DNA of 64,000 nucleotides from Planotetraspora sp. A-T 1434 (lineage in GTDB: Bacteria > Actinomycetota > Actinomycetes > Streptosporangiales > Streptosporangiaceae), in contig NZ_JAOEGB010000009.1 of NCBI RefSeq assembly GCF_025420585.1, forward strand, positions 186,001-250,000, written 5' to 3'. The translations under genes and the position numbers were made by a program. Positions 2,752-49,002 of the stretch are shown here, one piece after another (the first letter of the stretch is position 1; every line of letters begins with the position of its first letter). The notes below the pieces were generated by a model. The model saw only the letters and a program-made list of their open reading frames with translations, ran no database searches and was not told the origin of the DNA.

Positions 2752-4701
2752 GTGCGGAACGCCGGAGCGTCCATCGACCCGCCGACGGATCCGTTCGCGG
2801 CGGTGCCTCCGCCCGCTCCGCCCAAGAAGCATCCGGTGCGTCCGGGCTCGGCCTCGCTTCCTCGCGGGGTGTCGGCCGACATCTTCGGTGATCGCTCGCC
2901 CCAACCGGCGCCCGCCGCGGCGCGCATCCCGCGCCAGAGCAGCCTGCCGCCGCCCCCTCGGCCCGTGGAGCCATGGCCCATGGCGGAGACGACGGTCAAG
3001 GACGAGCCGGCCGTCGCCTTCGATCCAGAGCCGGAGCCGAAGAGCCGCACGGGCCGCTACGCCTTGATCGGCCTTTCCGTGCTGCTTCTCGCCCTCTATC
3101 TCGTACCCGCCGTCTCCATGGCCGGCCGGGTGCTGTCCGGCACCACGGTCCTCGGCGTCGACATCGGGGGGCAGACCAGAGCAGAGGCGACGCTGACCCT
3201 CCGCGAGAGGCTGTACGGCCAGATAAGGGCGCCCATCATCGTGCGGCAGGGCGCTCGGCGGCTGACGGTGAACCCGGAGGACGCCGGCCTGCAACTCGAC
3301 GTGGAAGCCACCGTACGGCAGGCCTCCAGCGGCTTTCCCAGCCCCGGGGACGTGTGGGCCTCGCTCACCGGCGGCCGTGAGGTCAAACCCGTGATCTCGG
3401 TCGATCGGGAGAAGCTCGCGGCGGCCGTGTCCAAGGACGTCGCCGCCTTCCTCGAGAACCCGGCGCAGGAGGGTGGCGTCGCGTTCAAGGGACTGACCCC
3501 CGTGCCGATCTATCCGAAGGCGGGACACAGGATCGACCGGGCGGCCGTCGCCCTCGACATCGAGGAGGCGTACCTCAGCCCGGATGTCATGGTCGTGGCC
3601 GCGATGGTCAAGGACGCTCCCCAGGTGACCCGGAGCGCGGTGCACCGCGCGCTGGCCCTGGCGAAGGACGCGGTCGCCGGGCCGATCACGCTGACCAATG
3701 GCACCAGGTCGGCGCAGATCCCCCCCGCCGTCATCGCGGAGAGCCTCACCTTCGCGCCGGACGACCATGCCCTGCGACCCCACTTCGACGCCGCGAAGGC
3801 GGTGGCCGGTCTGGAACGGCAGCTCGTCGATCCCGAGCAGGCGGCACGTGACGCCGGTTTCGCCATCGTGCGCGGCCGGCCCAGCCTGGTCCATGGCAGG
3901 CCCGGCAAGCGGGTGGACACCGGCCGGCTGGCCTCGGACGTCCTCGCGGCCGTCGAAGGCCCGAGCCGTACGGTGCCGGTGACCCTGACGGACGGGCAGC
4001 CGGCCGTGACCGACGAGGACGCGCTGAAGTTGGGCATCACGGAGGAAGCCGGCCGGTTCACGACGTCCTATGACTGCTGTCTGCCGCGCGTGGCCAACAT
4101 CCAGGCCGCCGCCCGATCGCTGAACAACCACCTGGTCAAGCCGGGCGAGACGTTCTCGTTCAACGAGGTCGTGGGGAGGCGGGACGCTGCCGCCGGGTTC
4201 CCCGGCGGGGTCACCGCCACCATGATCCGGGGGAGGGCCGGGTCCGACGTGGCGGGGATGTCGCAGGTCGCCACGACGATGCTGAACGCCGTGATGCGCG
4301 CCGGGCTCGCGGACGTGGAGCACACGGCCCCAGAGGTGTACGCGCCGCAGTATCCGGCGGGCATGGACGCGGCGGTCTCCTATCCCGCACCGGACCTGCG
4401 GTGGAAGAACGACTCGCCGTACGGCGTGCTGATCCAGGCCTCCGCCACGGACACCTCGCTCACGGTCGTCCTGTGGAGCACCAAGCGGTACGACGTGGAG
4501 CTCCGCGACCCGGTTAAAACCCGGGTGACCCATCTTCCGCCGACGAACGGCGGTGGCAAGGGCTGTGTCCCGGTGCCGGAGGAGCCCGGATTCACCGCCG
4601 AGGTGACGCGGGTCCTCCAGGGGGACGGCAAGGTCGTGGACCGCCAGACGTTCACGACCGTGTACCAGCCTCAGGCGGCCGTCGTCTGCTCGGCCAAGTG
4701 A
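2752..4701 (+). CDS. VanW-family membrane-anchored protein with peptidoglycan-binding-like domains
   Basis: 649 aa. Order of parts: a cytoplasmic Pro-rich N-terminus (1-98), one transmembrane segment (about 99-126, YALIGLSVLLLALYLVPAVS), extracytoplasmic repeats of the 'PG_binding_4' type (about 140-400), and a VanW domain (about 436-580) with SYDCCLPRVANIQAAARSLN and PGETFSFNEVVG. VanW proteins occur in vancomycin-resistance clusters and, as here, as stand-alone surface proteins of actinobacteria and firmicutes; their biochemical role is unclear. The GTG start at 2752 is chosen for the GGAGGAG box 8 bases upstream. It appears monocistronic. A cell-wall role is inferred from topology only. 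Confidence 0.85.
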   Translation: MRNAGASIDPPTDPFAAVPPPAPPKKHPVRPGSASLPRGVSADIFGDRSPQPAPAAARIPRQSSLPPPPRPVEPWPMAETTVKDEPAVAFDPEPEPKSRTGRYALIGLSVLLLALYLVPAVSMAGRVLSGTTVLGVDIGGQTRAEATLTLRERLYGQIRAPIIVRQGARRLTVNPEDAGLQLDVEATVRQASSGFPSPGDVWASLTGGREVKPVISVDREKLAAAVSKDVAAFLENPAQEGGVAFKGLTPVPIYPKAGHRIDRAAVALDIEEAYLSPDVMVVAAMVKDAPQVTRSAVHRALALAKDAVAGPITLTNGTRSAQIPPAVIAESLTFAPDDHALRPHFDAAKAVAGLERQLVDPEQAARDAGFAIVRGRPSLVHGRPGKRVDTGRLASDVLAAVEGPSRTVPVTLTDGQPAVTDEDALKLGITEEAGRFTTSYDCCLPRVANIQAAARSLNNHLVKPGETFSFNEVVGRRDAAAGFPGGVTATMIRGRAGSDVAGMSQVATTMLNAVMRAGLADVEHTAPEVYAPQYPAGMDAAVSYPAPDLRWKNDSPYGVLIQASATDTSLTVVLWSTKRYDVELRDPVKTRVTHLPPTNGGGKGCVPVPEEPGFTAEVTRVLQGDGKVVDRQTFTTVYQPQAAVVCSAK

Positions 4702-7225: not shown

Positions 7226-10198
7226 GTGACATCACCCCCTACCGGGCGCGACGACGCTGAGGCGACTCCATGTCCCGGCACGGTTCCGGCAGGCTCCGCC
7301 GTACCGGACGGACCGGCATCGGATATATCGGCTCCCGCTATATCCGTAACGGTCCCGGACACGAGCGGCACGCCGGCCACAGAGGCACCGGCCGACATAA
7401 GTGCAACCGACATAAGTGCAACCGACACAAGCACAACCGACACAAGCACAACCGACATAAGCACAACCGATACAGCGGCAACGAGCACAGCGACAATCGG
7501 GACGGCGGCTCCGGACAGAGCCGCGACGGACGCCGCGGCTCGAGGTACAGAGGCGACACGCGTGAAAGGCAGGCGTGACCCCAGGGTCTCGCTCACCGCC
7601 ACAGCCGGGCTCGGCGTGGCGGGGGTCCTCGCTGCCCTGATCACCGGAGGCTCGTCCTCCGCGCTCGCGGCCATCGCCGGGGTCGTCACGGGCCTTCTGG
7701 CGTCGGTCTCGCTGATCGTGGCGGCATCTCGGATGGTGCCGGGGCACCGGCGGCAGCCTGCCGCCTGGCGATGGCTGGCCGGAGGCTCGCTGACCTGGCT
7801 GCTCGGCGTCGGCGTCCGCCCGGTCGCGGACGGCACCCCGTTCGTGCTGACCTTCGCCGACCTGTTGCTGCTCGTCGGCTCCATCCTGCTCGCGATCGGC
7901 TGCGGCCTGTCCGTGAAACCCCCGGCGTACAGCCGTGGCGTGTTCCGGCAGGCCACCGACGCCTATGTGGGCGCCGCGTCGATCTTCGCGGTGGCATGGG
8001 TGGCCCTGCTTGGGCCGGCCTTCCGGAAGGCGGAGGAGCCCGCCGCCTTCTTCTCCACACTGGCGCTGCCCGTCGTGTGCCTGCTCGCGGCCTGCGCCGT
8101 GGCGCCCGCCGTCGCCGCGTCCCGCTCGGGCAGCCGTACGGTCGGCCTGGCCGGTGTGGGTGTGCTCAGCGCGATAACCGTGGCCGAGGTGGCCACGGCG
8201 CTCGCCCGGCTCAGTGGCGACACCCCGCCCCTGGCGGCCGTCCTCGTCGCCCCGGCCGCGTTCCTCGTGCTCGCCGTCACGCCGTGGGTCGAGGAGCGCC
8301 GCGCCTGGAAGCCGCTGCCGGCGGCCCTCACGGCCGCCACGCCGCTCGTCCTGGCAGCCGTCGCCACGGTGGTCGTGACCCTCCACGCGATCGCCGGGAG
8401 CCATGACCCCGCCCTTCCCGTCGTCGCCGCCTCCGTCGTCCTGGTGCTGCTCGGGCGGCTGTTCGTGCTGCTCGTGGAGACCGCCGGGATGCGCCGCCTC
8501 GTCGATGTGGGCGAACAACAACTCCGTCAGCTGGCCGAGAACACGGGTGACGTCGTGCTGGTCTGCGACTTCGACGGCGTGATCCGGGAGATCGGCGCGG
8601 GTGTCGACGCGACGTACGGCTACCGCCCCGGCGATCTCGCCGGACACCCGATCTTCGACTACATCCACCCGGAGGACGTTCCGGGGATCCATGCGCTGCT
8701 GCGCAGGATCGCCGCCGCCGACGACGACGTCTCGCAGATCCACGCGAGTTGCCGGATCGCCTGCCGCGTCCGCGCGGCCGACGGCACATGGCGGCCCACC
8801 GAGTCGGTCGCCACCCGCCACGTCCGCGGCGAGGACCTCATCCTCGTCACCGTCCGGGACATGACCGACCAGGTCGCCCTGCGGAACCAGGTCACCCACC
8901 TCACCTTCCACGACGGGGTGACCGGGCTGCCCAACCGTGCCTACTTCGAGGAGCGCGCCCGGGAGGTGCTCGCCCGGCGGAGCGCCGGCCGCACCGCCGT
9001 GATCTTCCTCGACCTCGACGGCTTCACCGGGGTGAACGACTCGGTCGGCCACGCCAGCGGCGACTACCTGCTCGGTCAGGCCGCCCGCCGGCTGCGCTCC
9101 GCCGTACGGGCCGACGACACGCTGGCCCGATGGGGCGGCGACGAGTTCGCGGTGCTGCTGGAGGGCGGCGTGTCCAGCGGTACCGACGCGCAGACCGCCA
9201 TCGATCTCGCGGAACGGCTGGTCCGCGCGGTGTCGTCCGAGCCGTTCCGCGTCGCCGATCGGGACGTGGCGCTCACGGCCAGCGTCGGCGTGGCCTTCGC
9301 GGAGGACGGCCTGCCCGCGGGAGACCTCCTGCGCAACGCCGATGTCGCGATGTCGCGCGCCAAGGAGCTGGGCGGCCGCCGGGTCGAGGTCTTCGCCACG
9401 CACATGCACGCCGATGTCGTGCGCCGCCTGGAGATCGCCGCGGACCTGCAGCGGGCGCTGCTGGAGAACCAGTTCACCGTCGAGTATCAGCCCGTGGTCG
9501 ACCTGGCGACTTCCCGCGTCGCGGCGGTCGAGGCGCTGGTCCGGTGGTGGCGGGGCAGCACGTTCGTGCCTCCGGAACAGTTCCTCGGCCCGGCGGAGGA
9601 CACGGGGCTGATCGTGCCACTGAGCGAGTGGATCCTCCGGGAGGCGTGCCAGGAGGTGGCCGCCTGGCGGGCCTCGTCATGGGACATCGGCCTGTCGCTC
9701 AACCTGTCCGCCCGCCAGATCACCGCGCCCCGGTTCGTCGAGACCGTGTCCGAGGCGCTGGCCGAGAGCGGGCTGCCCGCGAGCGCGCTGACCCTCGAAG
9801 TGATCGAGGAGATGCTGGTCGAGGACGCCGATGACACGATCACCAAGCTCTCGGAGCTGCGAGCCCTCGGCGTACGGCTGGCCATCGACGACTTCGGCAC
9901 CGGCTACGCGTCGCTGGCCTTCCTCCGGCAGCTCCCGGTCGACATGATCAAGATCGACCCGTCGTTCGTCTCCGGACTCGGCCGCGACGAGACTCTCACC
10001 CTGCTGACCCGGACGATCGTACGGCTCGGCCACGACCTCGGCCTGATCGTCGTCGCCGAGGGCATCGAGCGTCCCGAGCAACTGGAGCTCCTGCGCGAGA
10101 TGGGCTGCACGAGGGGCCAGGGCTACCTGGTCGCCCGCCCGATGGCCGCCCGAGGAGTCGACTCCCTCATGCGCACCACCCTCCAGAACACCGCCTAA
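7226..10198 (+). CDS. Membrane GGDEF-EAL protein with PAS domain (c-di-GMP turnover)
   Basis: 990 aa. Layout: a Thr/Ala/Asp-rich cytoplasmic N-terminus (1-110) with pentapeptide repeats, a hydrophobic multi-helix region (about 115-420), a PAS domain (about 430-545), GGDEF and EAL. The diguanylate cyclase motif GGDEF (637-641) is intact, with an I-site RADD ending five residues upstream, suggesting product inhibition. The phosphodiesterase motif EAL (769-771, followed by VRW) is intact, as is DDFGTGYASL. Both activities are therefore possible; which dominates cannot be told. GTG 7226 follows a GGGAGGGG box. In actinomycetes c-di-GMP controls development (BldD), which is a plausible role here. 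It stands alone, followed by repeat array B. Confidence 0.93.
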   Translation: MTSPPTGRDDAEATPCPGTVPAGSAVPDGPASDISAPAISVTVPDTSGTPATEAPADISATDISATDTSTTDTSTTDISTTDTAATSTATIGTAAPDRAATDAAARGTEATRVKGRRDPRVSLTATAGLGVAGVLAALITGGSSSALAAIAGVVTGLLASVSLIVAASRMVPGHRRQPAAWRWLAGGSLTWLLGVGVRPVADGTPFVLTFADLLLLVGSILLAIGCGLSVKPPAYSRGVFRQATDAYVGAASIFAVAWVALLGPAFRKAEEPAAFFSTLALPVVCLLAACAVAPAVAASRSGSRTVGLAGVGVLSAITVAEVATALARLSGDTPPLAAVLVAPAAFLVLAVTPWVEERRAWKPLPAALTAATPLVLAAVATVVVTLHAIAGSHDPALPVVAASVVLVLLGRLFVLLVETAGMRRLVDVGEQQLRQLAENTGDVVLVCDFDGVIREIGAGVDATYGYRPGDLAGHPIFDYIHPEDVPGIHALLRRIAAADDDVSQIHASCRIACRVRAADGTWRPTESVATRHVRGEDLILVTVRDMTDQVALRNQVTHLTFHDGVTGLPNRAYFEERAREVLARRSAGRTAVIFLDLDGFTGVNDSVGHASGDYLLGQAARRLRSAVRADDTLARWGGDEFAVLLEGGVSSGTDAQTAIDLAERLVRAVSSEPFRVADRDVALTASVGVAFAEDGLPAGDLLRNADVAMSRAKELGGRRVEVFATHMHADVVRRLEIAADLQRALLENQFTVEYQPVVDLATSRVAAVEALVRWWRGSTFVPPEQFLGPAEDTGLIVPLSEWILREACQEVAAWRASSWDIGLSLNLSARQITAPRFVETVSEALAESGLPASALTLEVIEEMLVEDADDTITKLSELRALGVRLAIDDFGTGYASLAFLRQLPVDMIKIDPSFVSGLGRDETLTLLTRTIVRLGHDLGLIVVAEGIERPEQLELLREMGCTRGQGYLVARPMAARGVDSLMRTTLQNTA
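7393..7482. repeat. 15-bp tandem repeats in the GGDEF-EAL gene
   Basis: Five copies plus one degenerate copy of CGACATAAGTGCAAC or CGACACAAGCACAAC run in frame from 7393, giving T-D-x-S-[AT] pentapeptides near the N-terminus. Base composition is clearly less GC-rich than the rest of the gene. The repeat looks like a slippage-prone coding minisatellite in a disordered tail. Confidence 0.9.
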
Positions 10199-10207
10199 AA
10201 CCCCCCG

Positions 10208-10324
10208 CGTGATCATGCACGGGTTCCGCGACAGGTCGCCTGACGGGGCCCGACTCCGAGCGTGATCATGCAAGGTTTCCCGGGAAGCCCTCAGAGCTGC
10301 ACCGACGTCCATCGTGATCATGCA
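10208..10324 (+). repeat. Dispersed 53-bp repeat array B (3 copies)
   Basis: CGTGATCATGCA occurs at 10208-10219, 10261-10272 and 10313-10324, spaced 53 and 52 bases, starting 10 bases after the stop of the GGDEF-EAL gene. The first two cores are followed by GGGTTCC or GGTTTCCCGG, as in the other arrays. From 10325 to 10529 I see no gene; the stretch has short GAGC/GCGA-rich direct repeats and leads into the ilvB control region. Confidence 0.9.
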
Positions 10325-10529
10325 GAAGCAACCGGCATGCGAGGGGCGCTGCCGTGTCTGGACTGAGGAGCCGAGTGGGGAGCGAGGAACGAGCGACCCG
10401 AGCGACGAGGGCTGTGCTCTGTCGCGCGCCTGCGGCACGACCAACGGCCTCAAAGGCGCCCCGAGCCCGCGCGAGCGGAGCGAGCGCAATGAACGCTGTC
10501 CGGATGGTGAGATGGCTGTCCCAGATGAT

Positions 10530-14210: not shown

Positions 14211-14343
14211 CGTGATCATGTGGCTTGCATGATCACGGGCGGCGTACGGCCAGGTCGGCACGGCAACCCAAGACCCTGTGCATGATCGCGTGTGGCGTAG
14301 GGCCAGGCTGGCACGGCAGGCCGGGACCCTGTGCATGATCACG
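14211..14343 (-). repeat. Dispersed 53-bp repeat array C between convergent ilvC and dacB
   Basis: TGCATGATCACG cores lie at 14226-14237, 14279-14290 (TGCATGATCGCG) and 14332-14343, each 53 bases apart, plus an oppositely oriented half copy CGTGATCATG at 14211-14220. The 14211 and 14226 copies face each other and form an imperfect inverted repeat. Each interval keeps GGCGTA-GGCCAG and ends in GACCCTG. The array fills most of the gap between the two gene ends. Confidence 0.9.
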
Positions 14344-24482: not shown

Positions 24483-26072
24483 GTGACCAAGCCCGTCGTA
24501 CTTGTCGCAGAAGAGCTTTCCGATGCGGGTCTCGCCGTGCTCGGCGCGGACTTCGAGGTCCGCCACACCGACGGCGCCGACCGGTCCCAGCTGCTGCCGG
24601 CACTCGCCGACGTGGACGCCCTGATCGTCCGCAGTGCCACCCAGGTGGACGCCGAGGCCGTCGCCGCCGCGCCGAAGCTGCGCGTCGTCGCCCGCGCGGG
24701 CGTCGGGCTCGACAACGTCGACGTGGAGGCCGCCACCAAGGCCGGCGTCATGGTCGTGAACGCCCCGACCTCGAACATCACCAGCGCCGCCGAGCACACC
24801 GTCGCCCTCATCCTGGCCAGTGCCCGCAACGTGGCCCAGGGCCACGCCGCGCTCAAGGGCGGCGAGTGGAAGCGCTCGAAGTACACGGGCGTCGAGCTCG
24901 ACGAGAAGGTCGTCGGCATCCTCGGCCTCGGCAAGATCGGCCAGCTCGTGGCCCAGCGGCTCCAGCCGTTCGGTGTCGAGCTCATCGCCTACGACCCCTA
25001 CCTGCAGCCGGCGCGCGCCGCCCAGATGGGTGTGAAGCTCGTCTCGCTGGAGGAGGTCCTCCAGCAGGCCGACTTCATCACGGTCCACCTGCCGAAGTCG
25101 AAGGAGACCATCGGTCTCATCGGCGACCGCGAGCTCCACATGGTCAAGCCGTCCGTCCGGCTGATCAACGTCGCCCGCGGCGGCATCATCGACGAGAACG
25201 CGCTCTACTCCGCCCTCAAGGAGGGCCGCGTCGCGGGCGCCGGCATCGACGTGTTCGCCAAGGAGCCGTGCACCGACAGCCCGCTGTTCGAGCTCGACCA
25301 GGTCGTGGTGACGCCGCACCTCGGCGCCTCGACGCACGAGGCCCAGGAGAAGGCCGGCACCCAGGTCGCCCGCAGCGTGAAGCTGGCGCTCGCCGGCGAG
25401 TTCGTGCCCGACGCCGTGAACGTACAGGGCGGCGCGGTCGCCGAGGACGTCAAGCCGGGCCTGCCGCTCACGGAGAAGCTCGGCCGCATCTTCACCGCGC
25501 TCGCGGGCGAGGTCGCCACCCGCCTGGACGTGGACGTCCGCGGCGAGATCGCCTCCCAGGACGTGCGGGTGCTGGAGCTGGCCGCGCTCAAGGGCGTCTT
25601 CACCGACGTCGTCGAGGACGCGGTGACTTACGTCAACGCCCCGCTGCTCGCCAAGGACCGTGGCACCGTGGTCGAGCTGGTGACCAGCTCGGACAGCCCG
25701 GACTGGCGCAACGTCATCACGGTCCGCGGCGTCCTGGCCGACGGCCGCACGGTCTCGGTCTCGGGCACGCTGTCCGGCCCCCGGCAGATCATGAAGATCG
25801 TCGAGGTCAACGGCTTCGCGATGGAGATCGAGCCCACCGACCACCTGGCGTTCTTCACCTACACCGACCGTCCCGGCATCGTCGGCATCGTCGGCCGCCT
25901 GCTGGGCGAGCACAGCGTGAACATCGCGTCCATGCAGGTCTCCCGGAACGTGAAGGGCGGCAAGGCCCTCATCGCGCTCACCGTTGACTCGGCCATCACG
26001 AGCGACATCATCGAGCAGATCGCCGGGGAGATCGGCGCCGACAGCGGCCGTACGGTCGACCTGGAGGACTGA
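24483..26072 (+). CDS. serA: D-3-phosphoglycerate dehydrogenase
   Basis: 529 aa, the long actinobacterial type. It oxidises 3-phosphoglycerate with NAD+ in the first step of serine synthesis. Domains: split substrate-binding domain, Rossmann domain with GLGKIG (about residues 146-151), an intervening allosteric (ASB) domain (about 315-450) and a C-terminal ACT domain (about 455-529; LAFFTYTDRPGIVGIVGRLLGEHSVNIASMQV). The catalytic Arg (NVARGGIID), Glu (AKEPCTDSPL) and His (VTPHLGAST) are present. The GTG start has GAAGGA upstream. Feedback inhibition by serine is expected from the ASB/ACT layout known in M. tuberculosis SerA. A strong terminator follows. Confidence 0.97.
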   Translation: MTKPVVLVAEELSDAGLAVLGADFEVRHTDGADRSQLLPALADVDALIVRSATQVDAEAVAAAPKLRVVARAGVGLDNVDVEAATKAGVMVVNAPTSNITSAAEHTVALILASARNVAQGHAALKGGEWKRSKYTGVELDEKVVGILGLGKIGQLVAQRLQPFGVELIAYDPYLQPARAAQMGVKLVSLEEVLQQADFITVHLPKSKETIGLIGDRELHMVKPSVRLINVARGGIIDENALYSALKEGRVAGAGIDVFAKEPCTDSPLFELDQVVVTPHLGASTHEAQEKAGTQVARSVKLALAGEFVPDAVNVQGGAVAEDVKPGLPLTEKLGRIFTALAGEVATRLDVDVRGEIASQDVRVLELAALKGVFTDVVEDAVTYVNAPLLAKDRGTVVELVTSSDSPDWRNVITVRGVLADGRTVSVSGTLSGPRQIMKIVEVNGFAMEIEPTDHLAFFTYTDRPGIVGIVGRLLGEHSVNIASMQVSRNVKGGKALIALTVDSAITSDIIEQIAGEIGADSGRTVDLED

Positions 26073-26136: not shown

Positions 26137-26165
26137 GTATATGTACGGCCCTCGGCCGGTTAATT

Positions 26166-26220
26166 GATCATGACGATAGTGCTGTCGGAAACGGCGTTCG
26201 ACAGCACTATCGTCATGATC
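26166..26220. repeat. Perfect 22-bp inverted repeat with 11-bp loop
   Basis: GATCATGACGATAGTGCTGTCG (first 20 bases GATCATGACGATAGTGCTGT; arm 26166-26187) is matched exactly in inverse orientation at 26199-26220. The loop is GAAACGGCGTT. The arms are much less GC-rich than the surroundings and no T-run follows. The outer part, TGATCATGACG, resembles the dispersed repeat core. It could be an operator, a remnant of a small mobile element or a stable RNA hairpin. Confidence 0.9.
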
Positions 26221-26288
26221 GACTGCTGCCCCGTCTCAGGCTTTGAGATATTAGGTCGTCCTACGAGATCCTGGGGTAATGTGGGCGA

Positions 26289-26611: not shown

Positions 26612-26629
26612 CGCGTCAACAGGGCTTCA

Positions 26630-26693
26630 TGCATGATCACGATGCTGATCGGGGCGGGCCTGCGCGCTTCCCGGGAATATGCGCATGATCACG
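26630..26693 (-). repeat. Dispersed repeat array D (2 copies)
   Basis: TGCATGATCACG at 26630-26641 and CGCATGATCACG at 26682-26693, 52 bases apart, with TTCCCGGGAA just before the second core. It lies 85 bases beyond the 3' end of the minus-strand ROK kinase gene. The remaining 26694-26777 shows nothing else. Confidence 0.85.
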
Positions 26694-40501: not shown

Positions 40502-43500
40502 TCAGACGGCCGCGGACGAGTTGCCCGCCAGCTTCACGCTGGCGATGTCGTTGGCCAGGAGCGCGGTCTCCACCGCGGCCACCGACGAGCTGGAGCTGAC
40601 ACCCGGCAACGTCGCGACGTTGAGGGCGTACAGCGTGAACTCGTACTTGTGCGAGGAGCCGCCCGGGCAGGGCCCGAAGTACTGGAGCGACTTGTCCCCG
40701 GTGCTCATCGCCTTCTGCTTGGCGGGCGACTGGTTCGGCACGTTGTAGCCGAGACCGAGGCCTTCGGGCAGAGACGACTTGCTGGCCGGGATGTCCCAGA
40801 TGACCCAGTGCTTGTTGCTGTTGGCGGTGTCAACCAGCTCGATGGCGTAGCTCTGGGTGCCCGCCGGAGGGTTGGCCCAGGCCAGCGGGGGCGAGATGTC
40901 GTTACCCGCCACGTGGTCCTGCTGGCAGGTGTACTTGATCGGGATGGTGCCGTTGTTGGCGAACGCCGTGCTGGTCAGCGACAACGCCGGCGGCGGGAAC
41001 TTCAGCCGCACGATGACATTGTCGAGGGTCGACGGAGTGCCGCCGCTCTTGTCGTTGTTGGTGCTGGTCAGCCAGAGACCACCGTCGGGGGTCTTGGTGA
41101 CCGTGCGGAGGCGGCCCCACCGGCTGCTGAAGAAGGCGCGCGGCGTGTCGGTGGTGTTGCCGTTGATGTGCATGACCCAGAGGCGCTCACCGCGGACCGC
41201 CGCCATGTAGATCCAGTCATTCACGATCTCGATGCCGCTCGGCGACGCGGAGGCCACGTCCCACTGCTGGACCGGGTTGACGTAGGCGGAGTTGGTGCAC
41301 TTGCCTTCGCAGTTCGGCCAGCCGTAGTTCTTGCCCGGCTGGATCAGGTTGAGCTCGTCCCACGTGCTGTCACCGAACTCGGCCTCCCACAGGCGGCCCT
41401 GGGAGTCCCAGGCGATGCCCTGCGGGTTGCGGTGGCCGAGGGAGTAGACGCGCGGCGCGCTCGGGAACGGGTTGCCGGGGGCGCCGGCGCCCGTCGTGGT
41501 GACGCGGAGGATCTTGCCGTTGAGCGAGTTGAGGTCCTGCGCCCGGTTGCCGTCCTGGCCGTCACCGGTGGTGATGTACAGGTAGCCGTCGGGGCCGAAC
41601 TTGATGCGCCCACCGTTGTGGTACTTGTTCTTGGCGATGCCGGTGACGAGCGGCTCACGGGCGCCGATGGCACCGTTCTCGTACTTGAAGCGGACGACAC
41701 GGTTGTCGCTGGCGGCCGTGTGGAAGGCGTAGATGTAGTGGTCGGTCGCGAAGTTCGGCGAGGCCGCGAGGCCGAGGAGGCCGCCCTCACCGGTCGTCGT
41801 CACCGCTTCGGTGATCTTGCCCACGACCGTCCGCTGCCCGCTCAGGGTGACGCGGGTGATCTCGAATCGGTCGCGCTCGGCCACCAGCGCACTGCCGTCG
41901 GGGAGCCAGGTGATGCCCCACGGCAGGTCCATCGCCGTGTTGACGTCCTTGTCGTAGATCGGGTCACCGCCGCCGGCGCTGCCGCCCGGGGTTCCGGGAA
42001 CGTTGGCGCTACGCGGGGAGACGTTGTTGTTGGCGTCGAACGCCTCGACCGAGAACTGGTAGGTCGTTCCGCTGGTCAGGCCGTCGACGGTCGCGGTCGT
42101 GTCGGGCACGGTCGCGAACTTGGCGCCGTCCTTGTAGACGTTGTAGCCGGTCACACCGATGTTGTCGGTGGAGGCGTTCCACTGCAGGGTGATGGTGTTC
42201 GCCGTGGTGTTGGTCACGCGCAGGTTGGCCGGCGTGCTCGGCGGCGTGGTGTCGTTGCTCGGCGGGGTGGTGATGTTCACCGGGTTGCTGGCCTGCGACG
42301 GGTTGCCCGCGGCGTCGTACGCGAGGACCGTGATGATGTACTGCGTGTTGGCCGTCAGGTTCGGCACCGTGGTGCTGGTGACGTTGCCGCCCACGGTGGC
42401 GAGCACGTTGCCGCCGTTGTAGACCTTGTACAGGGAGACGCCCACGTTGTCGGTGGACGGGTCCCAGGCGAGGTCGACCGCGTTGGGCCGCACGTCACCC
42501 ACGACGTGCAGGTTCGACGGAGGCGTCGGCGACTCGCTGTCAGCCGGGGCCGAGGTGCTCAGCTTGTCGAGGTTCGGGTTGCCGTTCACGGTCGTGGACG
42601 TGATCCGAACCAGGTTGGATCCCGCGGTCAGGCCCGCGGTGATGGTCTTGTCCACCCAGGTGTCCCAGTTGGTGGTGCTGGGGAACGACACGTTGCTGGC
42701 GACCGCGGTGCCGTTCACCGTGATGGTGCCGGGCCGGTCGATCGTGGTGCCGTTGGAGTAGCGGAACACCAGGCTGTAGTTGCCGGCGGTCGCCGCGGTC
42801 ACGTTGAACTCGGTGTACGAGCCCGCCACGTTGTCGCCGTTGACGAAGCCGGTGCCGGTGAAGCCGAGGTGGTTCGACTCCACGACGCCCTGGGAGATCG
42901 TGGCGTCCTCGGCCTGGTACTCATTGCTCGGCGGAGGCGGGGTGACGGCGTTGGCCGTGAGCTTGTCGAGGTTGGGGTTGCCGTTCACCGTCGTCGAGGT
43001 GATACGCACCAGGTTGGACCCGGCCGCCAGGTTGGCGGTGATGGTCTTGTCCACCCAGGTGTCCCAGTCCACGGTGCTCGGGAACGACACGTTGCTGGCG
43101 ACCGCGGTGCCGTTCACCGTGATGGTGCCGGGCCGGTCGGTCGTTGTGCCGTTGGAGTAACGGAAGACCAGGTCGTACTTGCCGGCGGTCGCCGCGTTCA
43201 CGTTGAACTCGGTGTACGAGCCCGTCACGTTGTCGCCGTTGACGAAGCCGGTGCCGGTGAAGCCGAGGTGGTTCGACTCCACGACGCCCTGGGAGATCGT
43301 GGCGTTCTCGGCCTGGTACTCGTTGCCCGAGGGAGGCGGAGGCGTGGCGGCGACGTCGACGTCGATGTAGTCGAGGTTCGGGTTGCCGTTCGCGCTGGTC
43401 GCCGTGAGCCGGATCGTGTTGGACCCGGCGTTGACCGGGGCCGTCAGCGTGGAGTTCGCCCACGTGTCCCAGTTCGTGGTGCTGTCGAACGGCCGGTTCG

Positions 43501-43825
43501 CCGACGCGACGGTGCCGTTGACGGCGACGTCCGCGGGCCGGCCGAGCGTCGTGCCGTTGGAGTACCGGATCACGATGGTCGCTGTTCCGGCGGCGGCGGC
43601 GTTGATCGTAAACTCGGTGTAGCTACCGGCGATGTTGTCGCCGTTGACGTAGGCGGTGCCGGAGAAGCCGGTGTGGGTCGTCTCCAGGATTCCCTGGGAG
43701 ATGGTGGCGTTCTCAGCTTCGTACCTCGTGGGGGCGGCCGACGCGGGGACGGCGGCCAGCATGCTGAGCATCAACGTGCCCGCGAGCGCGCCGACGAGTG
43801 TCCGCGCTCGGGTGGGAGATCTCAC
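40502..43825 (-). CDS. Secreted multidomain protein: 3 CBM (CBM6/35-like), 2 FN3, PQQ sugar dehydrogenase, PEBP domain
   Basis: 1107 aa from GTG 43825, which has AGGAGG four bases upstream and starts a Sec signal (ARTLVGALAGTLMLSMLAAVPASA). Then come three carbohydrate-binding modules of about 130 residues each (YEAENATIS, YQAENATIS, YQAEDATIS) and two fibronectin-III modules (SNLHVVGDV and ANLRVTNTT). A GSDH propeller follows (LPWGITWLPDG, HNGGRIKFGPDGYLYITTGD, LGHRNPQGIAWD), and a C-terminal PEBP/YbhB-like domain (NDISPPLAWANPPAGTQSYAIEL, HWVIWDIPA, YFGPCPGGSSHKYEFTLYAL). It probably binds a polysaccharide and oxidises sugar ends; the PEBP module is unexpected. A longer start at 43876 is less likely. 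A 19-bp palindrome lies upstream. Confidence 0.9.
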   Translation of the reverse strand: MRSPTRARTLVGALAGTLMLSMLAAVPASAAPTRYEAENATISQGILETTHTGFSGTAYVNGDNIAGSYTEFTINAAAAGTATIVIRYSNGTTLGRPADVAVNGTVASANRPFDSTTNWDTWANSTLTAPVNAGSNTIRLTATSANGNPNLDYIDVDVAATPPPPSGNEYQAENATISQGVVESNHLGFTGTGFVNGDNVTGSYTEFNVNAATAGKYDLVFRYSNGTTTDRPGTITVNGTAVASNVSFPSTVDWDTWVDKTITANLAAGSNLVRITSTTVNGNPNLDKLTANAVTPPPPSNEYQAEDATISQGVVESNHLGFTGTGFVNGDNVAGSYTEFNVTAATAGNYSLVFRYSNGTTIDRPGTITVNGTAVASNVSFPSTTNWDTWVDKTITAGLTAGSNLVRITSTTVNGNPNLDKLSTSAPADSESPTPPSNLHVVGDVRPNAVDLAWDPSTDNVGVSLYKVYNGGNVLATVGGNVTSTTVPNLTANTQYIITVLAYDAAGNPSQASNPVNITTPPSNDTTPPSTPANLRVTNTTANTITLQWNASTDNIGVTGYNVYKDGAKFATVPDTTATVDGLTSGTTYQFSVEAFDANNNVSPRSANVPGTPGGSAGGGDPIYDKDVNTAMDLPWGITWLPDGSALVAERDRFEITRVTLSGQRTVVGKITEAVTTTGEGGLLGLAASPNFATDHYIYAFHTAASDNRVVRFKYENGAIGAREPLVTGIAKNKYHNGGRIKFGPDGYLYITTGDGQDGNRAQDLNSLNGKILRVTTTGAGAPGNPFPSAPRVYSLGHRNPQGIAWDSQGRLWEAEFGDSTWDELNLIQPGKNYGWPNCEGKCTNSAYVNPVQQWDVASASPSGIEIVNDWIYMAAVRGERLWVMHINGNTTDTPRAFFSSRWGRLRTVTKTPDGGLWLTSTNNDKSGGTPSTLDNVIVRLKFPPPALSLTSTAFANNGTIPIKYTCQQDHVAGNDISPPLAWANPPAGTQSYAIELVDTANSNKHWVIWDIPASKSSLPEGLGLGYNVPNQSPAKQKAMSTGDKSLQYFGPCPGGSSHKYEFTLYALNVATLPGVSSSSSVAAVETALLANDIASVKLAGNSSAAV

Positions 43826-43877
43826 GGAGCCTCCTGCTGTTGGATCTGTGGGGGGAGAGGGGGCAGGGGAGAGCATA

Positions 43878-44176: not shown

Positions 44177-44947
44177 GTGCGTATCGCGAGGTTCTCCACA
44201 GGCGACGGGGTCGCGTTCGGAGTGGTGGAAGAGGGCGAGCAGGTCATCGCCAGAATCGACGGACACCCATTCGGCGGGGTCCAGCTCACGGGGGAGCGGT
44301 ATCCGCTCGCCGAGGTCCGGGTGGTCGCGCCCATGTTGCCGAGCAAGGTGATCGCGATCGGGCGGAACTACGCCGACCACGCCAAAGAGATGGGCGCCGA
44401 GCCTCCGGACGAGCCTGTTCTCTTCCTCAAGCCCAGCACGTCCGTGATCGGCCCGGGGGAGTCCATCGCGTACCCGGAGAAGCTGTCGCGGCGTGTCGAC
44501 TACGAGGGAGAGCTGGCCGTGGTCATCGGACGACTCTGCCGTGAGGTGCCGGCCGAGCGCGCCAATGACGTGATCTTCGGCTACACCTGCGCCAACGACG
44601 TGACCGCTCGCGACCTGCAGTCGAAGGACGGGCAGTGGGCGCGGGCCAAGGGCTTCGACACGTTCTGCCCGCTCGGCCCGTGGATCGAGACCTCGCTCGA
44701 CGCCGGCGACCTCGCGCTCACCACGACCGTGAACGGCGAGCTGAAGCAGAGCGGCCGCACGTCGTGGCTGCTGCACGACATCCCGGCGCTCATCGCCCAT
44801 GTGAGCGCGGTCATGACCCTCCTCCCGGGCGACGTCATCCTGACCGGCACGCCCGCCGGGGTCGGCCCGCTGGCCGTCGGCGACGAGGTCAGCGTCGGCA
44901 TCGAAGGAATCGGAACTCTAACTAACCGGGTGATCTCACGTGATTAG
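44177..44947 (+). CDS. Fumarylacetoacetate hydrolase (FAH) family protein
   Basis: 256 aa. An N-terminal cap of about 55 residues and the FAH/HpcE catalytic domain: [13 protein letters not shown], the metal-site Glu residues in [61 protein letters not shown] and [15 protein letters not shown]. Members hydrolyse or decarboxylate acylpyruvates (fumarylpyruvate, oxaloacetate, homoprotocatechuate products); the substrate here is uncertain. GTG 44177. The gene overlaps gltX by 8 bases, a pairing seen in many actinobacteria without a clear functional reason. Confidence 0.92.
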
Positions 44948-46307
44948 GGTGCGCTTCGCCCCTTCGCCCACCGGCATGTTCCACGTCGGCGGCGCCCGTT
45001 CGGCGCTGTTCAACTGGGCCCTGGCCGAGCAGTCCGGCGGCACGTTCGTGCTCCGCATCGAGGACACCGACGCGGCGCGTAACCGGCCGGAATGGACCGA
45101 AGGCATCATCTCCGCCCTTGCCTGGATCGGCATCCACGGCGACTCGCCGCACTTCGAGGGGCCCTACTTCCAGTCGGCCTACGAGCAGCAGCACCGCGAG
45201 GCGGCGGCCAAGCTGCTCAAGGACGGCAGGGCCTACCACTGCACGTGCACGCGCGACGACGTCAAGGCCAGGACCGGCTCCGAGCACCAGGGGTACGACG
45301 GCTTCTGCCGCGACCGCGGCCTGACCGAGGGCGCCGTGCGGTTCCGCACGCCGGACGAGGGCGTCACCGTGGTCGACGACAAGGTCCGCGGGCGGGTGGA
45401 GTTTCCGAACTCGGCGATGGAAGACTTCGTCATCGTGCGCGGCGACGGCTCGCCGCTGTTCATCCTCGCCAACGTGGTCGACGACATGGAGATGCGGATC
45501 AGCCACGTCGTCCGGGCCGAGGAGCACCTGTCCAACACGCCGAAGCAGCAACTCCTGTGGGAGGCACTGGGCACGGAGCCTCCGGTCTGGGCGCACATCC
45601 CGGTCATCGTCAACGAGAAGCGGCAGAAGCTCTCCAAGCGGCGCGACAAGGTCGCCCTGGAGTCCTACCGCGACGAGGGGTACCTCGCGGAGGCGATGGT
45701 CAACTACCTCATGCTGCTCGGCTGGGGCCCCGGTGACGACCGGGAGATCATGCCCTGGTCGGAGATGATGCCCCTGTTCCGGCTGGAGGACGTCAACCAG
45801 TCCCCGGCGTTCTTCGACGAGAAGAAGTTGCGGGCCTTCAACGGCGAGTACATCCGGGCGCTGCCGCTTGAGGTGTTCACCGCGCGCTGCGAGCCGTGGC
45901 TGGACCCGTCGTGGGACCGCGAGGTGTTCGCCAAGGTCGCGGGGCTGGCCCAGACCAGGGTGGCCGTGCTCTCCGAGATCACCGCCAACGTGGACTTCTT
46001 GTTCCTGGACCAGCCCGTCTTCGACCAGGCCTCCTGGGATAAGGCGATGAAGCCCGGCGCGGCCGAGATCCTGTCCGGGTACGCCGAGCGGCTGGAGTTG
46101 ATCACCTGGCATGCGGAGTGGCTGAAGGAGGCGCTGGAGGAGGTCGGCGCCGCCCACGGTCTCAAGCTGGGCAAGGCCCAGGCCCCCGTCCGCGTGGCGA
46201 TCACGGGCCGGACGGTGGGCCTGCCGCTGTTCGAGTCGATCGAGGTTCTTGGCCGCGAGCGGTCCCTCGACCGAATCCGCACGGCTCTCACCACCCTCTC
46301 GGCGTGA
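44940..46307 (+). CDS. gltX: Glutamyl-tRNA synthetase
   Basis: 455 aa. Class I synthetase that charges tRNA-Glu and, in bacteria without GlnRS, also misacylates tRNA-Gln for GatCAB. The HIGH element is [19 protein letters not shown] (His15). KMSKS is [10 protein letters not shown] (about residues 228-234). The C-terminal anticodon-binding helical domain runs from about 320. The GTG start lies inside the preceding FAH gene. The stop codon is itself the first bases of repeat array E (GCGTGATCATGCA), so the repeat begins exactly at the gene end. tRNA-Gln and two tRNA-Glu genes lie 2.5 kb downstream, beyond the M3 peptidase gene. Confidence 0.96.
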
Positions 46308-46601
46308 TCATGCACGGGTTCCCGGAAGGGGCCCGTGAGCTGCCGCGCCCCGTCCCGTGATCATGCACGAGGTCCTGGAAGGTGCCCGTGAGCTGCCGCG
46401 CCCCGTCCCGTGATCATGCACGAGGTCCTGGGCGTACCTCCTGGGCAGATAAAACGCTTTCGCTGATCATGCACGGCCTGGCGTGCATGATCACGGACTG
46501 CGTCATTGCAGGTCGGAGGCGCAATGCGGGAACTTGTGCATGATCACGACACGGGAGTGGGCTGGCCGGCCGCCCTCCGGCGGAAAGTGTGCATGATCAC
46601 G
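46303..46601. repeat. Dispersed 53-bp repeat array E: head-to-head, 4 forward and 3 reverse copies
   Basis: Forward CGTGATCATGCA cores lie at 46303, 46356, 46409 and 46462 (CGCTGATCATGCA, degenerate). Reverse TGCATGATCACG cores lie at 46484, 46537 and 46590. Every step within each half is 53 bases, and the halves meet at about 46474-46483. In the forward half the intervals are nearly identical (GTGAGCTGCCGCGCCCCGTC). The array fills the gap between convergent gltX and the M3 peptidase gene, beginning at the gltX stop codon and ending 44 bases before the peptidase stop. Confidence 0.93.
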
Positions 46602-46644
46602 CGCAGGGGGCGGTCCGCCACCTCATCGCGCTGGTGCAAGGGGG

Positions 46645-48624
46645 TTAGAGGAGGCCGCGGCGGGTGAGTAGGGGGGTGATCTCCGGCTCCCTGCCGCGGA
46701 AGCTCCGGAAGGCGGTCATCGCGTCCACGCTGCCGCCCCTGGACAGCAGCTCCCGGCGGAACCGGTCGCCGTTCTCGCGCCGCAGCCCGCCGTTCTCCGT
46801 GAACCACTCCACCGTGTCCGCGTCCAGCACCTCGCTCCAGATGTAGGAGTAGTAGCCCGCGCTGTAGCCGCCCGCCCAGATGTGGGCGAAGTATGTGCTG
46901 CGGTAGCGGGGCGGCACGGCCGGGAGATCCACTCCGGCGCTCCGTAGCGCCTCGGCCTCGAACGCCTCCGCGTCGCCGCCCGTATAGGCCGTGTGCCAGG
47001 CCCAGTCGAGCAACGTGGCGGCCAGATACTCGACCGTCGCGTACCCCTGGTTGAACTTCTGCGTCTCCAGCATCCGCTCGACCAACTCCCGCGGCATCGG
47101 CTCGCCGGTCTCGTGGTGCTTCGCGTAGTTCGCCAGGATCTCGGGATCGGTCGCCCACATCTCGTTCACCTGCGACGGATACTCCACGAAGTCACGCGGC
47201 ACCGCCGTACCCGAGAAGCGCGGGAACCGCACGTCCGAGAACAGCGCGTGCAACGCGTGCCCGAACTCGTGGAACATCGTGTTGACCTCGTCGAACGTCA
47301 TCAGGGTCGGCTCGCCCTTGACGATGTTCAGGTTGTTGACCACGACCGGCCGGGAGCCTTCCAGGGCCGACTGCTTGACCAGGCTGTTCATCCACGCGCC
47401 GCCTCGCTTGGAGGCCCGCGCGTGGAAGTCGCCGAGGAACAGGCCGATCGGCGCGCCGTCCTCGTCGAAGACCTCGAAGACCCGCACCTCGGGGTGGTAA
47501 CCGTGCAGGTCCTCCCGCTCGGTGAAGGTGACGCCGTACAGGCGCGTGGCGGCGTAGAACACGCCCTTCTCCAGGACCGTGTTCAGCTCGAAGTAGGGCC
47601 GCATCCGGGCGCTGTCGATGTCGTAGCGCGCCTTGCGCACCTTCTCGGCGTAGAAGGACCAGTCCCACGGCTGTACGGCATGCCCGGCGAGCTCTTCGAG
47701 GTCGGACTGCTCCTTGCGGGCGTTGGCCACCGCCGGCGGGACGAGCCTGTCCAGCATGTCGGTGACGGCCTGAGTGGTCCCCGCGGTCTGGTCGGCCAGG
47801 ACGTACTCCGCGTGGTTCCCGTAGCCGAGCAGCCTGGCCCGTTCGCGGCGGAGCGCGGCCATCTCGGTGATCAGCTCGGCGTTCTCCGCGCCCCGGCCGA
47901 CGGACGCCTCGTGGACGCGCTCGCGCAGCGACCGGTTCGTCAGCTCGGAGAGGGCCGGCTGGCCGGTCGGCAGGACGAGCGTGATGAGGTGCCTGCCGTC
48001 GAGCCCGCGCTCCTTGGCGGTCTCCCGGAGCCCCTCGATCGCGTCCGCCGAGAGGCCGTCCAGCTCCGCCACGTCGTCCACCACGACGGCGCGTGCGTTG
48101 GTGTCGGCGAGCAGGTTCTGCTGGAACGTCGTCCCCAGCGTGGACAGCCGCTCGTTGAGCTCCCTGAGCCGCTCCTGGTCCACGGGATCGAGTACGGCTC
48201 CCGCCCGCGTGAAGTCCGTCAGGTAGCGATCGAGCAGCCACCGCTGCTCGTCGTCGGCCGCCTCGACCGCCCGGATGCGGGCGAAGAGCCTGGCGTTGAG
48301 GTGGACGGCGTCGGCGTGCTTGGCCAGCTTGGGCGTGACGTCCTTCTGGATCTCCTGGACGCCCGGTGTCGTGTCGGAGGACGCCTGGTTGAAGAACACC
48401 GCGGAGACCCGGTCGAGTAGCCGCCCGGACCGCTCCAGTGCCTCGATCGTGTTCTCGAACGTCGGCGGCTCCGGGTTGTCCGCGATCGCCGCGACCTCGG
48501 CGAGGTGCTCCGCCATGCCCTGCTCGAACGCCGGCCCGTAGTGCTCCTCCCTGATCTCCTGGAAGGGAGGCAGCTGGTAGGGCAGGGTGCTGGGGCTCAG
48601 AAAGGGGTTCGCGGCCGAGGTCAT
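46645..48624 (-). CDS. M3-family zinc oligopeptidase (Dcp/oligopeptidase A type)
   Basis: 659 aa from ATG 48624 (MTSAANPFLSPSTLPYQLPPF), with GAGGAG 9 bases upstream. Zinc site HEFGH (about residues 451-455; MFHEFGHALHALF) with the downstream third ligand in EYPSQVNEMWA. The long alpha-helical N-terminal half and the C-terminal Tyr-rich loop (AHIWAGGYSAGYYSYIWSEVL) are typical of peptidyl-dipeptidase Dcp / oligopeptidase A. A cytoplasmic enzyme that degrades short peptides. The open frame extends further upstream to 48780, but that part has no family similarity. Convergent with gltX. Confidence 0.94.
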   Translation of the reverse strand: MTSAANPFLSPSTLPYQLPPFQEIREEHYGPAFEQGMAEHLAEVAAIADNPEPPTFENTIEALERSGRLLDRVSAVFFNQASSDTTPGVQEIQKDVTPKLAKHADAVHLNARLFARIRAVEAADDEQRWLLDRYLTDFTRAGAVLDPVDQERLRELNERLSTLGTTFQQNLLADTNARAVVVDDVAELDGLSADAIEGLRETAKERGLDGRHLITLVLPTGQPALSELTNRSLRERVHEASVGRGAENAELITEMAALRRERARLLGYGNHAEYVLADQTAGTTQAVTDMLDRLVPPAVANARKEQSDLEELAGHAVQPWDWSFYAEKVRKARYDIDSARMRPYFELNTVLEKGVFYAATRLYGVTFTEREDLHGYHPEVRVFEVFDEDGAPIGLFLGDFHARASKRGGAWMNSLVKQSALEGSRPVVVNNLNIVKGEPTLMTFDEVNTMFHEFGHALHALFSDVRFPRFSGTAVPRDFVEYPSQVNEMWATDPEILANYAKHHETGEPMPRELVERMLETQKFNQGYATVEYLAATLLDWAWHTAYTGGDAEAFEAEALRSAGVDLPAVPPRYRSTYFAHIWAGGYSAGYYSYIWSEVLDADTVEWFTENGGLRRENGDRFRRELLSRGGSVDAMTAFRSFRGREPEITPLLTRRGLL

Positions 48625-48796
48625 CTCTGGCGGCTCCTCACGTGGTGCTGGCGCGGTGATGGCGTGTGTCCCCAGCCTTACACAGAGGAGCCCGGAGACG
48701 AGATCGCGGGGCACGCCGCAATCGTTTTGGTAGTGGGTCCCAAGCTGGGCTATTCTTTCGGAGTCGCAAGCGGGGCCCACGGGTTCCGCGAGCAGA

Positions 48797-48868
48797 TGGG
48801 GTATGGGGTAATTGGCAGCCCGGCTGATTCTGGTTCAGCTAGTCTAGGTTCGAGTCCTGGTACCCCAG
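48797..48868 (+). tRNA. tRNA-Gln (CTG anticodon)
   Basis: A 72-nt cloverleaf: acceptor TGGGGTA/TACCCCA, D-arm GTAATTGGCAGC, anticodon loop centred on CTG in TGATTCTGGTTCA, T-loop GGTTCGAGTCC, discriminator G. CCA is not encoded. The U1-A72 pair is characteristic of tRNA-Gln. With gltX and gatB nearby, this tRNA is expected to be charged first with Glu. Confidence 0.95.
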
Positions 48869-48918
48869 CTGGATCCCCCCACAAGGGATTCTGCTGGATA
48901 GAAAACAGCGCAGTGCAA

Positions 48919-48991
48919 GGTCCCGTCGTCTAGTGGCCCAGGACGCCGCCCTCTCAAGGCGGTAGCGGCGGTTCGAATCCGCTCGGGACTA
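48919..48991 (+). tRNA. tRNA-Glu (CTC anticodon), copy 1
   Basis: A 73-nt cloverleaf with acceptor GGTCCCG/CGGGACT (a G-U first pair), anticodon CTC in CCCTCTCAAGG, T-loop GGTTCGAATCC and discriminator A. CCA is encoded at 48992-48994. It lies 50 bases after tRNA-Gln and differs from copy 2 mainly in the acceptor and T stems. Confidence 0.93.
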
Positions 48992-49002
48992 CCACACTGC
49001 AA

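Follow-up and report, generated by a model that had tools for sequence, protein, structure and literature searches.

Several kinds of short sequence repeated outside genes have been described. The mycobacterial interspersed repetitive units (MIRUs) are intergenic tandem units of actinobacteria, several of which are ∼53 bp long. In the rDNA of eukaryotes, arrays of short repeated duplex sites lie downstream of genes, where a bound protein (TTF-I or Reb1) stops the polymerase; these terminators are polar and serve one gene family. Repetitive extragenic palindromic sequences (REPs), bacterial interspersed mosaic elements (BIMEs) and REP doublets forming hairpins (REPINs), of the GTAG and CGTC super-families linked to REP-associated tyrosine transposases (RAYTs), are described in PMC3733652 as short, high-copy and extragenic, lying downstream of genes in species-restricted families, mostly between convergent or co-directional genes and frequently in head-to-head pairs. 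Here, we analyse a 64,000-nucleotide stretch of contig NZ_JAOEGB010000009.1 (positions 186,001 to 250,000; called the window throughout), in which an array of the motif GTGATCATGCAC lies between the convergent genes for GltX and an M3 peptidase. It is a member of a dispersed family of a few hundred DNA elements, positioned directly downstream of genes and kept in place between close species. Like the REPs, the array motif is high-copy, extragenic and found downstream of genes.

An earlier sequence-only reading of the window had described a head-to-head array of seven repeat copies, at a 53-bp step, exactly filling the gap, and most of this description holds. Four forward copies (46304–46315, 46357–46368, 46410–46421 and the innermost at 46463–46474, with one mismatch) follow gltX (44940–46307, + strand, PF00749 and PF19269; start possibly 44949), and three reverse copies (the innermost at 46483–46494, then 46536–46547 and 46589–46600) lie on the side of the M3 peptidase gene (46645–48780, − strand, PF01432; start uncertain, placed at 48624 by our own gene caller). 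In each half the copies follow one another with a step of 53 bp throughout, and the two halves join at 46475–46482, in agreement with the meeting point previously placed near 46478. gltX terminates on the TGA contained in the first motif (open reading frame end 46307), as had been noticed, and the seventh motif ends at 46600, 44 bp short of the M3 stop at 46645. These 44 bp are left over, so the gap is not exactly filled. The part shared by all copies is a motif of 12–14 bp, and the rest of each copy is mostly variable spacer. Units 1 and 2 of the array are 92% alike over 53 bp, and unit 3 is just 60% alike.

We read 794 kb of the source genome (G000, 7.78 Mb) for arrays and compiled statistics over five genomes (G000, G022, G240, G243 and G118), with 103 arrays in all; any motif without a second motif within 400 bp was dropped from these counts. 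The analyses of gaps, positions and selection used a simple codon-based gene caller, which misses some small genes and places some starts wrongly. The exact 12-mer occurs 552 times in G000 and its reversed control does not occur at all; with up to one mismatch the numbers are 1063 and 7, respectively. The window holds 18 motif 12-mers at this tolerance, where 100 shuffles gave 0.27 on average, and they make up five arrays. In the 794 kb there are 60 arrays, or 75 clusters when lone motifs are counted, and 157 of the 171 same-strand adjacent steps in this part of G000 (0.79 Mb) measure 52 or 53 bp. What is repeated is a core, TGATC(A/T)TGC(A), with a period of 52–53 bp. The spacers between motifs carry TTC(C/G) at positions 14–17 and a GACCTG-like block at positions 32–37 (with numbering that starts at the first letter of the 10-mer) and are otherwise mostly variable. 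No conserved sequence lies behind the innermost motif of an array, so n motifs bracket n−1 spacers. Among pairs of spacers taken from different G000 arrays, 21 of 8217 are at least 80% alike.

The motifs follow an order rule that is independent of the genes: + comes before −. Among the 103 arrays 48 are + then −, one is − then +, three are mixed (two of them solely through one motif read on both strands) and 51 have a single orientation. The sequence-only reading had suggested that each orientation belongs to the transcript that runs into it, and this is not supported. Co-directional gaps hold 16 single-orientation arrays pointing with the genes and 11 pointing against them. The 40 arrays in convergent gaps comprise 13 only +, seven only −, 19 + then − and one other. 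In the window, the array at 2447–2564 has three reverse motifs although gatB (867–2375) and the next gene (2752–4701) are both on the + strand, and the orthologous gap at C26:65873 holds three forward motifs in G022 and three reverse motifs in G240. The mirror symmetry at gltX/M3 is the gene-independent + before − rule met in a convergent gap.

The position of the arrays does follow the genes. Arrays are found in 40 of 243 convergent gaps, 55 of 985 co-directional gaps and five of 238 divergent gaps, with three arrays in no gap (arrays outside gaps or at a contig edge were tallied apart). Stop codons are faced by 135 array edges; the distance is within 100 bp for 94% of these edges, and 30 of them reach or extend over the codon. 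Where co-directional gaps have at least 100 bp free, 25 of 28 arrays sit in the half nearer the upstream gene (p = 3 × 10⁻⁵).

Comparison of closely related genomes shows which letters are kept. Contigs C2 of G022 and C1 of G238 are 96.5% identical over 241 kb, and all seven arrays are kept between them, aligned end to end. Over 48 motifs, differences fall at 17 of 475 motif sites, 11 of them at the last letter (positions 0–8 differ at six of 428 sites), and at 13 of 351 sites of the TTCG and GACCTG blocks. The other spacer sites differ at 159 of 1163 positions (13.7%; Fisher p = 1 × 10⁻¹⁰ for the motif and 3 × 10⁻⁸ for the blocks against these sites). For comparison, the rates are 5.7% at third codon positions, 5.2% at other intergenic sites and 6.8% at fourfold sites. 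The nine-letter motif is intact in 42 of 48 cases; for random intergenic 9-mers the intact share is 71%. Changes affect 9.8 and 13.8% of the C and G sites of spacers, about twice the values for fourfold C and G sites (4.7 and 5.7%); spacer A and T sites (17.5 and 21.7%) lie below fourfold A and T sites (26.4 and 27.7%) and above other intergenic A and T sites (6.5%). The mismatches are scattered through most of the 36 spacers (0–14 in each, with a mean of 5.7 when gaps are counted and one gapped outlier with 29), which disfavours gene conversion between arrays because its changes would come in blocks. The pattern seems to be the trace expected of selection on a recognition sequence within otherwise free DNA. 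As a separate observation on contig C2 of G022, differences between species are commoner in the array centres (32 of 180 sites) and in the 60-bp flanks of the arrays (11.7% of 145 sites) than in other intergenic DNA (∼5%), hinting at a raised local mutation rate around these arrays.

Between genera the arrays turn over. At ∼85% identity, and counting a conserved gap as array-bearing when it holds at least one of the retained motifs (those with a second motif within 400 bp), G000 and G022 share three of 11 array-bearing conserved gaps and G000 and G240 share one of nine. The single gap common to G000 and G240 is the gltX gap, which has four forward and three reverse motifs in both genomes with differing spacers. 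A convergent gap of 13 bp in G000 (C126:245412), with one lone motif at the gene end, corresponds to gaps of 413–500 bp with arrays in G240 and G022, and the ilvC gap of G240 keeps a single lone motif. G022 and G240, at 86.5% identity, have four of five arrays in common, one of the four oppositely oriented. In G022 (C26, near 95057) and in the orthologous gap of G240, similar hairpins (GGTGGAAGGC..GCCTTCCACC) occupy the third array spacer, which looks as though the array grew around a terminator that was there before it.

The gltX of G000 shares up to 92% identity with the gltX genes of Microbispora and Planotetraspora. Within the family, Streptosporangiaceae, motif pairs at array spacing occur in 14 of 341 genomes from five genera when the sixth letter is left free, and in ten of 341 from three genera with the exact core. 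The carriers with the sixth letter free are G000, all five genomes of genus g23 (Planotetraspora, including G240, G237 and G239), five of 15 in g71, both genomes of g35 and G128 (two pairs). The g71 member G118 has a gap sequence identical to that of Microbispora sp. H11081. In a sample of the class, ten of 394 genomes, from six families, have at least 20 copies of GTGATCWTGCA: G000 (828), G422 (414), G812 (328), G937 (108), G853 (90), G109 (78), G762 (45), G797 (35), G784 (27) and G1028 (22). The contrast can be found within one genus, g338, where G812 has 328 copies and G776 has one. In a sample of the phylum, two of 396 genomes (G000 and G422) have exact pairs at 52–53 bp. A collection of viral contigs yielded a single stretch, on the 4.4-kb metagenomic contig L207, whose array is degenerate but related and consists of the core and GCAGGT blocks; we rejected carriage of the arrays by phages.

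The letters around the core differ from lineage to lineage. The core is followed by CACAGGTTCC-like letters in G000, CACAGGTTCG-like letters in G022 and CAGAAGTTCG in G240, and G243 and G118 have CTCGC and GTCGC forms, respectively, with TGATCTTGCA. These companion letters vary as a set by lineage (CAGG in G022, GAAG in G240, CTCGC in G243 and GTCGC in G118), and the lineage-specific letters are also seen where orthologous gaps hold arrays. Other families have TGATCWTGCA too: the core is common to distant lineages and the surrounding letters are not. In the distant actinomycete G422 (L212, L237) the 414 core copies are followed by ATCCCGCCACCC in the loci that were read, and the core occurs in direct arrays with array-specific periods as well as in a hairpin. 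G025 (L238) has two identical 49-bp hairpins (GTGATCATGCAGTTTT..AAAACTGCATGATCAC), ∼220 bp apart, with the core at both outer ends.

Folding calculations were used to compare the arrays as DNA and as RNA. The spacers alone fold like shuffled sequences in five genomes (mean z of −0.64 to +0.23), and the motif–spacer–motif unit has mean z values of −0.49 and +0.06 in the two TGATCTTGCA genomes. The centre of the gltX/M3 array is different: copies 4 and 5 would pair as RNA in a 12-bp stem with a 6-nt loop (46464–46493), the region 46460–46500 reaches −22.8 kcal mol⁻¹ (z = −5.0), and the whole + − array taken as one long hairpin reaches −175.7 kcal mol⁻¹ (z = −8.6). Of five single-orientation stretches of the window, four are shuffle-like (z = −0.8, −0.9, +1.1 and +0.3) and that at 2447–2564 is borderline (z = −2.0, with seven of 200 shuffles as low). 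At all six + − junctions of G118 the 10-mers are 2 bp apart and form a long palindrome. Among the gaps tested for hairpins, from which those with a single motif were left out, a strong hairpin lies inside 22 of 48 two-orientation arrays and three of 47 single-orientation arrays. An Rfam scan of the window at the gathering score found only three tRNAs, with no RNA family in the array, and a crude terminator scan of 44900–49000 for a GC-rich stem and T run found one consensus site at 48736 and none within the gltX/M3 array. Because half of the arrays have no + − junction and arrays occur pointing either way, it is simplest to suppose that they are recognised as duplex DNA.

In some gaps where one genome has an array, relatives have GC-rich hairpins. 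Within a fixed span of 150 nt, strong hairpins are less frequent at the ends of arrays than at convergent ends without one, and among convergent gaps they lie outside the array in two of 20 that have a single-orientation array and are present in 41 of 97 that have none; over all gaps of comparable free length the difference is not significant. For orthologous gaps (at least two motifs required, divergent gaps excluded) in which only one species has an array, the array-less partner has a strong hairpin in six of 19 comparisons (13 distinct gaps) and the array-bearing partner has one outside its array in one of the same number. In the gatB and C126:196198 gaps G000 has an array, and G022, G240 or both have strong GC-rich hairpins. 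The ilvC gap, with the 14225–14342 array in G000, has GC-rich hairpins in G022 and in G240.

Set against the described systems, the element differs from the REPs in the remaining defining features. A REP unit is a hairpin-forming palindrome of 20–40 bp, whereas the array spacers fold like shuffles, although the + − centres do fold. REP dimers are mainly head-to-head, whereas the arrays run mainly head-to-tail in 52–53 bp steps, with head-to-head joins as well. The Y1 transposase family (PF01797) was not matched in ten of 16 array- or motif-rich genomes, G000 included, and was matched in 12 of 20 other genomes; CGTC-type REPs have no link to a transposase gene either, according to PMC3733652. 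The array core is common to several families of Actinomycetes, and the words Actinobacteria and Streptomyces do not appear in the text of that paper. Since three of the four tested features differ, we rejected membership of the REP/RAYT group.

Intrinsic terminators share with the arrays a place at the gene end, and some of the gaps that hold arrays contain GC-rich hairpins in array-less relatives; unlike such terminators, 51 of the 103 arrays have a single orientation and these rarely contain a hairpin. MIRUs are not known to have a + then − order or a 12-bp core and a drifting spacer. The TTF-I and Reb1 arrays resemble the reading favoured below by analogy and not by membership; here many genes are concerned and the protein is putative. 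A CRISPR array, with its longer exact repeats and unrelated spacers, does not fit: the core has 10–12 bp, and TTC(C/G) and GACCTG recur in the spacers at constant positions (no search for cas genes was made). A stop-codon cassette was also considered, in which TGATCA gives TGA on both strands, steps of 52 or 53 bp shift the frame and three copies could stop all frames. It was rejected: all three frames are covered by 94 of 135 sub-arrays with at least three copies, yet by just 41 of 71 in G000, and arrays of G422 with steps of 30, 45 and 54 bp count against it. Helical phasing of the 53-bp unit was rejected because the 10.6-bp component of the information profile is the largest in none of five genomes; as a general rule it is also contradicted by the other steps of other lineages. 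Loss of Rho as the reason for the arrays was discarded, the Rho RNA-binding domain being present in 21 of 21 genomes, carriers and non-carriers.

The reading that we favour, at a little less than even confidence, is that the arrays are DNA read by a putative protein and serve as an orientation-neutral boundary at gene ends. A sequence-specific DNA-binding protein, found only in array-bearing lineages, would read the motifs as double-stranded DNA and build a short nucleoprotein block at the gene end. The block would limit transcription read-through, the spread of supercoils or both, whichever way the array points, since duplex recognition operates from both sides; arrays would grow by local duplication and be gained and lost between genera. 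We infer such a trans-acting reader from the sequence constraint together with the lineage-wide differences in companion letters. The sequence-only reading had proposed a role in ending or insulating transcription or in trapping supercoils; a role at gene ends is plausible from the 3′-end position and the conservation of motifs in place, and for termination the hairpin evidence is mixed. Several observations weigh against this reading. The boundary function is argued from position and partly from hairpins, the reader protein from sequence, and the selection test from one genome pair. When gaps of comparable free length are compared, the difference in hairpins is not significant (five of 31 versus 124 of 550, p = 0.51), nor is it for a hairpin anywhere in the gap (seven of 47, p = 0.27). 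In the three TGATCATGCA genomes the motif–spacer–motif unit folds somewhat better than shuffles (mean z of −1.35 to −1.71). The full set of G000 spacers, redundant ones included, has stacked covariation above column shuffles (0–1 of 100 reach it), with a parallel control nearly as high (3–7 of 100 reach it); the excess vanishes once spacers at least 65% alike are removed (66 and 49 of 100 shuffles reach it), the parallel control then scoring above the antiparallel one. Stacked covariation does not exceed column shuffles in the spacers of G022 and G240, nor in the non-redundant spacers of G000, G022 and G240, and RNA covariation was therefore rejected. The steps of G422 range from 23 to 61 bp among the forward sites listed (half of the sites). 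Two facts are awkward for a strong terminator: an array of G000 stands between same-strand genes for an ABC ATPase and an FtsX-type permease (Pfam ABC_tran and FtsX), and some array-bearing gaps have counterparts in relatives that measure 9, 13 and −4 bp. We thus leave the strength of the boundary unspecified and lean, short of conviction, towards a boundary over a tolerated selfish repeat.

Such a repeat is the most serious competitor, possible although we think it the less probable account: an extragenic element with a REP-like life-style, copied by a putative enzyme that recognises GTGATCWTGCA, without benefit to the host, its 3′-end location arising from selection that purges insertions elsewhere. 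It would sit well with the patchy spread among genomes and within g338 and g71, with the gain and loss between genera (including the 13-bp gap), with the few similar spacers in different arrays and with the array inside the ABC ATPase/permease gene pair. It accords poorly with the conservation of the motif and of two spacer blocks in orthologous arrays, where mismatches are scattered and no blocks are replaced, and with the retention of arrays in place between G022 and G238 and largely between G022 and G240. No transposase-like gene, and no mobiliser gene bracketed by arrays, was recognised by eye among the bracketed genes of eight G000 regions; of the bracketed genes checked with Pfam, two are the ABC_tran and FtsX genes and two have no family. 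The absence of Y1_Tnp matches from ten of the 16 carriers points the same way. We consider it unlikely that the arrays act at the level of RNA, folding once transcribed so as to end transcription or to protect mRNA 3′ ends in the manner of REPs or intrinsic terminators. The array centre and the whole + − array at gltX/M3, the hairpins of nearly half of the two-orientation arrays, the G118 palindromes and the units of the three genomes noted above would suit this idea; the scarcity of hairpins in single-orientation arrays, the shuffle-like window stretches, spacers without structure or covariation beyond redundancy, and the Rfam and terminator scans do not. Less probable still is a site that solely organises supercoils or the chromosome, by docking gyrase, a nucleoid protein or SMC, with transcript ends unaffected. 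The preference for 3′ ends and convergent gaps, the indifference to orientation and the sequence constraint are consistent with it, and Escherichia coli BIME-2 binds gyrase according to PMC2817692; a universal factor such as gyrase leaves the near-zero copy numbers of related genomes unexplained.

The window has four arrays besides that at gltX/M3. The one at 2447–2564 has three reverse copies between gatB (+) and a VanW-domain gene (+) and points against both genes. The array at 10209–10325 has three forward copies and begins 10 bp past a GGDEF–EAL gene, ahead of a + gene at 10717 that we take by eye to be acetolactate synthase-like. At 14225–14342 three reverse copies are flanked by ilvC (+, with KARI domains) and by a gene for an S13 peptidase (−), and two reverse copies with a 52-bp step lie at 26629–26692. 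Other repeats are also present. A long inverted repeat recognised by eye at ∼26165–26230 (TGATCATGACGATAGTGCTGTCG and its complement), in the gap that follows a + gene with its end at 26072, holds TGATCATG, yet is distinct from the array motif. The segment 48914–49409 has two tRNA genes in an 84-bp tandem duplication; a 98-bp repeat (94% matches) then runs for ∼3.6 copies from the end of the second tRNA. Almost three copies of a 399-bp tandem repeat occupy 42561–43714 within the 40502–43876 open reading frame, and ∼5 copies of a 15-bp repeat lie at 7392–7470 in the 5′ part of a GGDEF–EAL protein gene.

Among the titles and abstract openings listed, mostly from open-access literature, none describes such an element, and none of the listed papers that contain the exact motif strings deals with such a repeat by its title; this is weak evidence of absence from the literature. 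The boundary reading can be extended, as a conjecture that we hold with more doubt than belief: a patchily distributed and probably exchanged factor may read GTGATC(A/T)TGCA and mark gene ends genome-wide with nucleoprotein arrays, in places where relatives have hairpin terminators, its specificity for the letters around the core shifting by lineage and hundreds of sites following. The contrasts within genera (328 copies versus one in g338; carriers and non-carriers in g71) make a search for the reader directly feasible. The fast-changing spacers, with 13.7% of variable sites different at 96.5% genome identity, are potentially sensitive strain markers. If the reading is true, the arrays would be a further way, beside hairpins and Rho, for a bacterium to mark the ends of its genes, or else extragenic repeats of a new class, strict in architecture and with a putative reader.
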